Source of the DNA: Candidatus Aenigmatarchaeum sp.
Lineage (GTDB): Archaea > Nanobdellota > Nanobdellia > Pacearchaeales > GW2011-AR1
DNA length: 11,837 nt
Assembly (NCBI GenBank): GCA_020724205.1
Contig: DYHK01000015.1
Span: forward strand, 1-11,837
Direction of reading: 5' to 3'
Shown: in pieces, positions 2,966 to 7,049 of the stretch
How positions within the stretch are numbered: the stretch's first letter is position 1
How the letters are laid out: every line of letters begins with the position of its first letter
The notes under the pieces: generated by a model
What the model was told of the DNA's origin: nothing
The model's database searches: none
Seen by the model: the letters and a program-made list of their open reading frames with translations, nothing else
Program-made: the position numbers and the translations under genes

Positions 2966-4027
2966 TTAATTCACAATCACTAACTTATTAGAATTCTGTT
3001 TAGCAAAAAACCTTTGTTCCACTTGAGGCCTGTAAGAAAGATATAGTTGATTGAGTCTTTTTGTACGCTCCTTGACAGTTTCTGTTGGGATTTGTTTAAG
3101 TTTAGCTGATTTAGTTCTTGGCCTAGAGGAGTAGGAAGAGGTGTTTATTATTTCTGGTTTTATTTCAGCTATTAGGTTTAAAGTATCTTGGAAGTCGGCT
3201 TCTGATTCTGATGGAAAGCCTACTATTACGTCTGTTGCAATGTCAATATCTGGAATTTCTTTTCTGAATAATTCTACAGCTTGTTTAAACTCTGCAACTG
3301 TGTGAATTCTTTTCATGTCTTTCAAGACTTTTTCAGATCCTGCCTGAACAGGTATGTGGATAAACTTCTGAATCTTTGGATTTTTATAAACCTCAATTAA
3401 GCGTGGCAAGATTTTTCTTAGGTGCCAGGGATTCATCATTCCAACTCTAATTTTATAGTCTCCCTCAACTGTTAAGAGTTCGTTTAATAATTCTGGAAGA
3501 TTTGTTTTTATATCAAATCCATAACACCCATTATCCTGAGAGGTTAGGTAGATTGTTTTACATCCAGAATTTATAGCTTGCTCAAAGCTCCTTTTTATGT
3601 CTCCGATTCTAAAACTCTTAAGAGTGCCTCGTGCTAGCTTTGTTGCACAAAAGGTACACGAATTTAAGCATCCTTGAGATATCTGTATTATTCCAATATC
3701 ATTTTTATTTCTTATAATACTTGAACCTAATTTATTTGTGTTAATTGTATCTATTACTTGCGCATTTGGGAATTTTTTATTAATATCAAGAGTCTTTGTT
3801 AAGCACCCTCCTATCTCTATTTCCTTTCCTGAGCTTTCAAGTGAGCGAATATAGTGAAGTATTTTAGATTGAGTTTTATTCTTTACAGAGCAGGTATTAA
3901 CTATTATCTTATCTGCATCCTTTTCATTGGAAACAAGCTCGTGCCCTTCACTCACAAGTTTTCCTGATAGGATTTCTGAGTCATTAATATTTGCCTGACA
4001 TCCGTATGTTTTTTTGAATATTTTCAT
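2966..4027 (-). CDS. tRNA t6A37 methylthiotransferase (archaeal e-MtaB/MiaB-like radical SAM), lacking TRAM domain
   Basis: This 353-residue protein has the two-cluster architecture of methylthiotransferases. The N-terminal UPF0004 domain carries C10 (KTYGCQANINDSE), C46 (NTCSVKNKT) and C75 (GGCL) for one [4Fe-4S] cluster. The radical-SAM motif is C120-LNS-C124-TF-C127 for the SAM-binding cluster. Later family blocks are present: TSQDNGCYG, RVGMMNPWHL, FIHIPVQAGSEKVLKDMKR, DVIVGFPSE. NPWHL and the overall pattern fit the archaeal/eukaryotic branch (CDKAL1-like), which adds methylthio to t6A37 of ANN-reading tRNAs. The family normally has about 410-430 residues with a C-terminal TRAM RNA-binding domain. 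Here the protein stops after QNSNKLVIVN, and the promoter of the next gene begins at once, so TRAM is absent, not frameshifted within view. A TATA box lies at 4051-4058. It needs reduced Fe-S electron supply, for which the nearby ferredoxin is a candidate. Confidence 0.9.
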   Translation of the reverse strand: MKIFKKTYGCQANINDSEILSGKLVSEGHELVSNEKDADKIIVNTCSVKNKTQSKILHYIRSLESSGKEIEIGGCLTKTLDINKKFPNAQVIDTINTNKLGSSIIRNKNDIGIIQISQGCLNSCTFCATKLARGTLKSFRIGDIKRSFEQAINSGCKTIYLTSQDNGCYGFDIKTNLPELLNELLTVEGDYKIRVGMMNPWHLRKILPRLIEVYKNPKIQKFIHIPVQAGSEKVLKDMKRIHTVAEFKQAVELFRKEIPDIDIATDVIVGFPSESEADFQDTLNLIAEIKPEIINTSSYSSRPRTKSAKLKQIPTETVKERTKRLNQLYLSYRPQVEQRFFAKQNSNKLVIVN

Positions 4028-4073: not shown

Positions 4074-4895
4074 TTATTCCGATTTCCAATTGTTTTCTAA
4101 CTTTTCTAAAAGACTTTTTTCTAGACTTGAAAGGCCCAAATCGTTTAATGCTTCTGATATTTCTTCAGGAGCATAAGAATATATATTTAAGAATTTATCA
4201 ATAAATTTTTCCGTAGCTTCGCTCCCTTCTGTAGTTCGCGACACTCCACGAACCCTGCTATCAATGCAAAGGCTCCTGCCGTCGCCACCAAGGAAAGACC
4301 TACCGCCCATCCTGCCGAACCACTGTTGTCTAACAAAGGGCTCCTTTTGCCGGTTTACATAATTATTATCAACAGTATAAACAGGCATTGATTTTATACC
4401 TGCACCTATTAAAAAGTCTCCATAATCTTGAGCCTTTCTTGGATCTCCTCTTCCAAAAGCCCAAACAGTTAATGGATCTTCATTAAATCTATTAGCAGGG
4501 ATCTCTGAATTTTTCAAAGGAAAATCAACAGAATCTTCTAATGCTTTTTCAATAGCCTCACTTGAAGTATAAAATTCTTTTCCTTCTCTATCAGCATGAG
4601 TAGCTTCTTTAGCTGAATATAAAATTGGAGAGTTTCTTACTAATTTATTTCCTTTTCCAGGAATATAAATTACTCCTTCTCTTACACAGTTTCCATTTCC
4701 TGAACACCAAGCATCTTTTCCTTCCTGAATTCTAAGTCTGGCATTTTCCTCTAAAGAAATGATATCATAACCTTCAGATTCTAAAAGTATTTTTCCTTCA
4801 TCAAAAGGAGCCTGATAACATCTAGAAGTAACTGGTTCTCTTGGTCTTACATCATCAACCCTTTCATACTTTCTAGCCTCATTAAGTGTTTCCAT
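4074..4895 (-). CDS. Conserved-looking orphan with adenine-poor, variable-region-like 3' block (273 residues)
   Basis: No named family is assigned. Residues 1-190 look like an ordered soluble domain: CYQAPFDEGKILLESEGYDI, SLEENARLRIQEGKDAWCSG, a VREGVIYIPGKG strand pair, RNSPILYSAKEATHADREGKEF, and TVWAFGRGD. Residues 192-218 (WFGRMGGRSF through SRVRGV) are Gly/Arg/Ser-rich and end in RVRGV, similar in style to the GFRP/GVRP end of C-type-lectin/FGE-type domains. Residues 219-229 bridge to a helical tail (about 230-273). The block 4211-4320 is 65/110 G+C by hand count, against about one third around it. Its coding strand has only 21 A, and no AAN codon occurs from residue 185 to 229. That pattern resembles a diversity-generating-retroelement variable region. 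No signal peptide or membrane segment was seen. A TATA box (4917-4924) gives leaderless initiation at 4895. Confidence 0.7.
   Translation of the reverse strand: METLNEARKYERVDDVRPREPVTSRCYQAPFDEGKILLESEGYDIISLEENARLRIQEGKDAWCSGNGNCVREGVIYIPGKGNKLVRNSPILYSAKEATHADREGKEFYTSSEAIEKALEDSVDFPLKNSEIPANRFNEDPLTVWAFGRGDPRKAQDYGDFLIGAGIKSMPVYTVDNNYVNRQKEPFVRQQWFGRMGGRSFLGGDGRSLCIDSRVRGVSRTTEGSEATEKFIDKFLNIYSYAPEEISEALNDLGLSSLEKSLLEKLENNWKSE
4242..4322 (-). other. Candidate DGR-type variable region (codons 192-218)
   Basis: Fourteen of 27 codons end in C or T and could descend from AAC/AAT by changes at A only: ggc194, ggc197, ggt198, tct200, ttc201, ggt203, ggc204, gac205, ggc206, agc208, tgc210, att211, gat212, agc213. 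Adenine is depleted only here. The GC-rich bases 4211-4241 that follow could serve as an initiation-of-mutagenic-homology element. No template repeat was found in the window, so the call rests on composition. Confidence 0.35.
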
Positions 4896-6078: not shown

Positions 6079-6106
6079 CCAACTCGCTCTAATTTTAGCG
6101 AGTTGG
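6079..6106 (+). repeat. Inverted repeat overlapping the 5' end of RNase P RNA
   Basis: CCAACTCGCT (6079-6088) and AGCGAGTTGG (6097-6106) are perfect 10-bp arms around an 8-base spacer. The left arm copies the 3' strand of P1 but lies upstream of the predicted transcript start, so it may act at the DNA level or be a relic of P1 duplication. Confidence 0.6.
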
Positions 6107-6378
6107 ATAGCTAACTTCGGGATTAGTTGTTAGATCAACAAATACTGATAATGAGTATTAATTCTGAGGAAGGTCCGCACATTGTAAAAAGACCATACGT
6201 GAAAGCGTACACCTGTGAGGGTGAGCTCTGGTATAGAAACGAAACCCTTTAGTGGGATGGAACGAGCATCTTGGTCAATGCAACCACTCTAACCGTGGGC
6301 TTAGAAGGATGTTAGCACAAACAGTTTGTCCTTAGGGAAACAATGTTTGACAGAATGTGGCCTATTTCCAACTCGCTC
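6097..6378 (+). ncRNA. rnpB: RNase P RNA
   Basis: This is the catalytic RNA that removes tRNA 5' leaders. The universal CR-I block GAGGAAGGTCCGCAC is at 6166-6180 and the CR-V block ACAGAATGTGG followed by CCTA is at 6350-6364. They pair to form P4 (GGTC-C-GCA with TGT-GGCC) with the conserved bulged C. AGAAACGAAACC at 6235-6246 resembles CR-IV. The ends are set by P1: AGCGAGTTGGA (6097-6107) pairs perfectly with TCCAACTCGCT (6367-6377). The length, near 282 bases, is short but within the archaeal range. Ends are accurate to a few bases. An unusual feature is that both P1 strands have extra complementary copies just outside the gene (6079-6088 and 6379-6389). The promoter is at 6068-6075. Confidence 0.93.
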
Positions 6379-6956: not shown

Positions 6957-7028
6957 GGGGATGTAGCTCAGTGGGAGAGCACATGACTGAAGATCATGGT
7001 GTCGGGTGTTCGATCCACCCCATCCCCA
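6957..7028 (+). tRNA. tRNA-Phe (anticodon GAA)
   Basis: All four arms fold with full pairing. The acceptor is GGGGATG/CATCCCC, the D stem GCTC/GAGC, and the anticodon stem CATGA/TCATG around loop CTGAAGA with GAA at 6989-6991. The variable region is GTGTC, the T stem GGGTG/CACCC with loop TTCGATC, and the discriminator is A7028. The gene is intron-free and 72 bases long. CCA is not encoded (ACCT follows), so CCA must be added enzymatically. It reads UUU/UUC codons. RNase P RNA is encoded about 580 bases upstream, but the two have separate promoters. Confidence 0.97.
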
Positions 7029-7049
7029 CCTTATATTTCTTCAAAGATC

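Follow-up and report, generated by a model that had tools for sequence, protein, structure and literature searches.

The gene at 4074..4895 (minus strand) of the window, by which we mean the whole stretch of 11,837 nucleotides that was analysed, very probably encodes an AvpA-like variable protein of a diversity-generating retroelement (DGR), that is, a target that is stranded from its machinery and is either fed in trans or frozen. This assignment of the 273-residue protein is based on its homologues and on a profile relation to AvpA, and its variable region (VR) was placed at 4242..4323 (minus strand; codons 192-218, which correspond to 4242-4322) using a codon view and an alignment to a template from the genome G223. 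The earlier note on this DNA proposed that the protein is, or was, a DGR target, and this is supported by homologues that match templates and lie beside a reverse transcriptase (RT), by VR mismatches that are biased towards template adenines and by the relation to AvpA. The gene shows how the target of a DGR may be identified when no cognate template is in hand.

In the proposed mechanism, a DGR RT would copy an A-rich template, which, judging by the templates of relatives, would hold about 7-8 AAY codons, and would make errors at A. The cDNA would then replace codons 192-218, and Asn codons would become GGC, GGT, GAC, AGC, TGC and similar codons; such rewriting would account for a block that is poor in A and rich in G+C. 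The randomised residues would form a predicted binding loop between the strands 187-193 and 214-220.

Composition of the variable block

A recount of the coding strand at 4211-4320 gave 21 A, 21 C, 44 G and 24 T, and hence the 65/110 G+C and the 21 A that had been reported before. When the codons of the gene 4074-4895 were shuffled 20,000 times, no shuffle reached 65 G+C per 110 b, whereas 158 had 21 A or fewer, which makes the G+C peak the stronger signal. The maximum in the eight other genes of the window was 38-50 G+C per 110 b, and the highest value anywhere outside the patch was 56. The absence of AAN codons across residues 185-229 was also correct. Other details of the original description had to be adjusted. 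The flanks are indeed A-rich, but 60-base blocks outside the patch contain 30-45% A rather than 37-42%; the codons between 192 and 213 that end in C or T number 17 instead of 14, several being invariant in the templates of relatives; and the block was first delimited as 4211-4322, but the match to templates spans 4242-4323, and 4211-4241 lies downstream of the VR. The G+C content of the VR is 0.59 compared with 0.33 in the flank, and the VR has not drifted.

Comparison with templates of other species

The window VR was compared with 81 templates, all of which are from other species and none of which is cognate to it. The best-fitting template was that of G223, which aligned to 4243-4323 with a score of 28.2, compared with no more than 18.8 in 12 other gene segments and no more than 17.6 in 20 shuffles. 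Mismatches fell on 20 of the 28 template A and on 13 of the 53 other bases, and for either of the two best templates the A bias had a p of about 1e-4. Because 13 non-A mismatches, which are expected between species, were present, this is a bias and not an A-only match. When the 81 other VRs were set against non-cognate templates, mismatches were found at 1106/1861 A, 295/1389 C, 229/1530 G and 315/1538 T. At the codon level, the G223 template has Asn at 194, 198, 203, 205, 206, 208 and 210, where the window protein has G-G-G-D-G-S-C, and W192, F193, S200, G204, R216 and G217 are unchanged between the two. The ancestral template would therefore probably have had AAY codons at these seven positions, as far as the sequence can tell, and perhaps further ones at 211-213.

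Homologues with and without templates

The window protein had no match in Pfam, NCBIfam or PHROGs, and the other members of its family had only stray weak matches there. Proteins of this family are encoded in 16 of the 139 genomes that were searched, its own included (15/138 others), and two pattern-based scans found no viral relatives. An RT adjoins several of the homologues. In their alignments, which the earlier note had suggested as a test of hypervariability, the residues from Q-L-W-F to R-V-R-G-V were highly variable by eye, with a few positions fixed among them.

A scan for repeat pairs whose differences sit at one base of one copy identified six homologues with a template and an RT in five genomes, namely G091 (two), G096, G040, G093 and G139. 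The VRs of the first four genomes differed from their templates by 10-20 A mismatches and no non-A mismatch (in G091, one template matched two VRs in two homologues), and the VR of G139 had 11 A mismatches and one non-A mismatch. As a control, the scan was applied to 112 RT loci and gave a signal for A at 81 of them, for G at 22, for T at one and for C at none; we read the 22 G signals as the same pairs in reverse, A to G being a common change. In relatives, a single template can serve 2-3 VRs, some of them kilobases away from it on one contig (G068:C36, G085:C85, G139), and no template-target pair on separate contigs was found among the genomes tested.

For 13 homologues in 11 genomes, the RT loci fetched from the same genomes yielded no cognate template; some of these loci are short, and two of the RTs (L089, L090) are outside the DGR RT table. 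The VR G+C content was 0.48-0.68 in the six template-matched homologues and 0.30-0.39 in the drifted L078, L079 and L084. However, L002 and L004 have a VR G+C content of 0.59-0.61 although no template was found for them, and a clean VR is therefore no proof of a live one. The VR G+C content was not used for L005/L076 (one gene), L008, L014 and L077, in which the best template match lay off the place of the VR. Homologues with a drifted VR (L078, L079, L084) or an unrecognisable one (L005 = L076, L008, L014, L077) represent fossil DGR targets.

Relation to AvpA and the predicted structure

In a profile search of the PDB with 19 members of the family (alignment A6), AvpA (5ioo) was the sole match at E <= 1, with an E of 1.8e-4 over AvpA residues 121-235. 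Another profile, A1, whose alignment was too divergent for scanning the genome collection, gave an hmmsearch E of 0.025 against AvpA, and hhalign gave a probability of 91.8 against one AvpA fragment. An AlphaFold2 model from 13 sequences had a pLDDT of 85.7 and a pTM of 0.76 and placed the VR between the strands 187-193 and 214-220. Its pLDDT was under 50 at 223-228 and 230-239, and the helices 243-252 and 256-271 were predicted in the C-terminal tail (residues 219-273, 4074..4241, minus strand). A C-type-lectin fold of the window protein is suggested by these sequence comparisons.

According to PMC5006420, AvpA is a DGR variable protein of a relative of the Nanoarchaeota whose VR is internal and is followed by 46 residues, which are predicted to form two helices and are absent from the crystal; the hairpin DNA lies within the coding tail, and the IMH encodes strand beta5 with RFxGV. 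The roughly 55 residues that follow the block in the window protein, which were noted before as odd, were thus confirmed in number and lost their oddness. Like AvpA, the window protein has an internal VR, an R-x-x-G-V-like end and a tail of about 50 residues. Unlike AvpA, to which it is likened by sequence and not by fold, its identity to that protein is low, it has no adjoining template or RT and its hairpin is eroded. The same source describes A-mutagenic retrohoming into a ligand-binding surface for Mtd of the Bordetella phage BPP-1 and TvpA of Treponema (PMC5006420), which work in a similar way but are phage and bacterial C-type lectins of the FGE type with the VR at the extreme C-terminus. 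Some AvpA-like proteins of groundwater archaea are associated with a DGR and some are without one (PMC5006420, Table 3); whether the latter keep undrifted VRs is not discussed in the available part of that paper. With the window gene, the AvpA-like DGR proteins gain a member that is stranded and has not drifted.

The IMH-like end and the hairpin

The templates of relatives terminate in GGAATA or GGAATG and their VRs often in GGGGT, and the window reads GGAGTG at 4242-4247. Because this GGAGTG stands at the place of a template end, 4242..4253 (minus strand; GTTCGTGGAGTG, encoding V-R-G-V at the model strand 214-220) was assigned as the IMH-like end of the VR and 4211-4241 as tail. The proposal that 4211-4241 is the IMH was therefore rejected; it is a coding tail after the VR, where many relatives hold a hairpin. 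A perfect stem of at least 5 bp followed 70 of 98 template-matched VRs compared with 12/98 shuffled sequences, a GAA loop was found in 43/98, and 28/98 had stems under 5. In the window, there is AGC-GAA-GCT alone (4215..4223, minus strand), with a stem of 3 bp, and the DNA folding of 4190-4250 had a z of -1.44. The window hairpin is eroded, and AGC-GAA-GCT is perhaps a remnant of a GAA-loop hairpin.

The search for the template and the RT

The window is the entire contig C58 of an assembly (G000) of 724,590 b in 153 contigs that is 67.5% complete. The earlier observation that no RT or template lies in the window was borne out and extended to this assembly. Neither RVT_1 nor a DGR-RT profile found an RT in the contigs of the 67.5%-complete assembly, and a DGR-type RT was present in 6/6 other genomes of the genus that were examined. 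In the case of the template, a plain DNA search of G000 returned the VR alone, and the same search missed the known template of G096. As this control pair had failed, the search was repeated with a profile built from nine templates, which found nothing convincing in the assembled two thirds of the genome. The profile recovered 6/8 held-out templates (G068:C36 and G002:C7 were missed), and its blank therefore carries more weight for the assembled two thirds. A candidate of 32 b in contig C111 (E 0.026) was rejected because it reads as coding and has no A-only match to the VR. The search of the genome for an A-rich copy next to an RT, which had been proposed as a check, thus found neither in the 67.5%-complete assembly.

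Downstream of the target lies a gene (2966..4027, minus strand) that we take to be a MiaB-like radical SAM gene. Between the target stop and its start there are 46 b, with no template or RT in between, and the locus therefore holds the target without the rest of a complete cassette. With this gap, and with no RT or template found, the target is stranded from its machinery. Immediately upstream of the MiaB-like orthologue in the congener G006 are a target end, a template and an RT. By eye, however, this target fragment resembles another class, and the two loci need not share one inheritance. No DGR was seen at the MiaB-like site of G005, G002 and G003, and G001 and G004 had no match to the MiaB-like gene. 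The G006 locus (L109, contig C20) has an A-poor template (12/85), of whose 12 A nine are changed in the VR, and an in-frame RT with (AG)4. Elsewhere in the window, an archaeal RNase P RNA (Rfam RF00373, 110.6 bits) was found at 6098-6376 (+) and a tRNA-Phe(GAA) at 6957-7030 (+).

Alternative explanations

It is an even call whether the window gene is a frozen remnant, in which case its cassette would have lost the template and the RT, leaving the gene an orphan today whose last VR would be kept as a binding loop or be drifting. The gap of 46 b, where G006 holds a template and an RT, agrees with such a loss, as do the reduction of the hairpin to 3 bp and the 13 homologues without a cognate template found, three of which have drifted. 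On the other hand, the window VR is undrifted, with a G+C content of 0.59 and 20 of 28 template-A sites changed, about one third of the genome is missing while all six congeners have an RT, and short stems also follow more than a quarter of the template-matched VRs. The undrifted VR and the incomplete genome would also suit a target that receives its sequence in trans from a template and RT elsewhere, for instance in the third of the genome that is not assembled, and the templates of relatives that serve 2-3 VRs, some kilobases off on the same contig, provide a parallel. We regard this as quite possible, if slightly short of even, since no cross-contig template-target pair was found among the tested genomes and the hairpin is weak.

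Composition alone does not discriminate a VR from an ordinary GC-rich patch that arose without a retroelement, be it a glycine-rich loop, the result of local conversion or DNA of foreign origin, and no template of its own is in hand for the window gene. Nonetheless, such a patch would have to produce A-biased mismatches against templates in a gene whose homologues are shown to carry VRs by their own templates, and we consider it very improbable. A stranded AvpA-like target, whether frozen or fed in trans, is therefore our preferred reading.

Repeat tracts in the DGR RT genes of the order

An RT at E <= 1e-20 was found in 74/200 genomes of the order to which the window belongs. The RT set comprised 128 distinct copies from the order and a few other genomes, of which 118 could be read at the joint that precedes the motif GMPLGN and 10 were set aside. 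At this joint, 78 copies were in frame and 40 were shifted. A tract, defined as G/C >= 6 or AG >= 4, was present in 37/40 shifted compared with 20/78 in-frame copies (Fisher p 9e-13); when one copy per genome was drawn from 78 genomes, the median p was 7e-10 over 200 draws and the worst was 1e-6. Three shifted copies had no tract at the chosen thresholds. The tracts ranged over G6-13 or (AG)4-27, and their carriers include L055, L057, L061, L065, L074, L096, L101, L104, L106 and L122. The 37 tract-shifted copies were otherwise whole, as the N part was stop-free in 36/37 and the C part was open in 36/37. A-only VR/template pairs were kept with similar frequency in both sets, namely in 28/40 shifted and 53/78 in-frame copies, a count in which three copies per set had too little sequence and pairs with more than two non-A mismatches were excluded.

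At a second joint, after YVDD, 4/78 copies were shifted, all with G10-G12 (L049, L207, L209, L210); L123 has a tract at this site and is in frame, and the tracts of the site span G7-G12. Among 52 long tracts (G/C >= 8 or AG >= 6) in 654,164 b around RT and target loci, 45 lay within about 200 b of the motif, a part that amounts to 39,392 b. The virus-borne DGR RTs (the best 80 of 302, from which 11 duplicates and one unreadable copy were dropped) gave 68 distinct readable copies, of which none was shifted and two had an in-frame C8 in GC-rich DNA. Tract states were scattered over a quick tree of 111 RT copies, with 41 changes compared with a shuffled mean of 45.3 (9/200 as low).

The phases 0/+1/+2 were evenly represented among the 57 tract copies as a whole (20/15/22), but stood at 7/14/22 in the 43 with G >= 8 or AG >= 7, of which 36/43 were out of frame (7/43 in frame, p 0.022 against one third). 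With AG >= 7, 0/14 were in frame, and 13/14 short tracts were. These phase counts disfavour a programmed frameshift of one phase, and an RT made of two fixed subunits was rejected because both tract kinds and all three phases occur at one joint.

Possible phase variation of the hypermutator

These features make it fairly probable that hypermutation in this order is phase-variable, with slippage in a G or AG tract switching the DGR RT on and off. Replication slippage at the tract would place a stochastic switch atop a stochastic diversifier, and the rewriting of targets like the window gene would come in bursts, after which the sequence would be kept. In-frame and shifted alleles, with in-frame copies that carry a tract, were seen across species with one genome each. 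That the long tracts are mostly out of frame suits an RT that is mostly off, with short tracts locked on; it also suits tracts that grow after gene death, as well as indel errors in long tracts. For the window gene, phase variation of the RT would matter only if an RT of this kind exists in its species.

The simple-sequence contingency genes of Campylobacter and Neisseria resemble the DGR RTs in having poly-G or other short tracts within a reading frame and both in-frame and shifted versions; they differ in that here the gene is the hypermutator itself, is archaeal and is known from single assemblies. No phase-variable DGR RT was among the literature matches listed, and none is mentioned in the available parts of two papers. 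If phase variation is true, the gene of the hypermutator would itself act as a contingency locus, which would bear on how cells prevent such an enzyme from destroying a product that has been selected.

In G025, contig C67 (L128) ends in G12 inside the RT gene and contig C93 (L127) begins within the RT core, and the assembly may have broken at the tract. By eye, CGAACG or CGAAGC often comes after the G tracts and ACGCG after the AG tracts (e.g., L055, L096, L101, L097, L166 and L168), and such common flanks might hint at a moving cassette.
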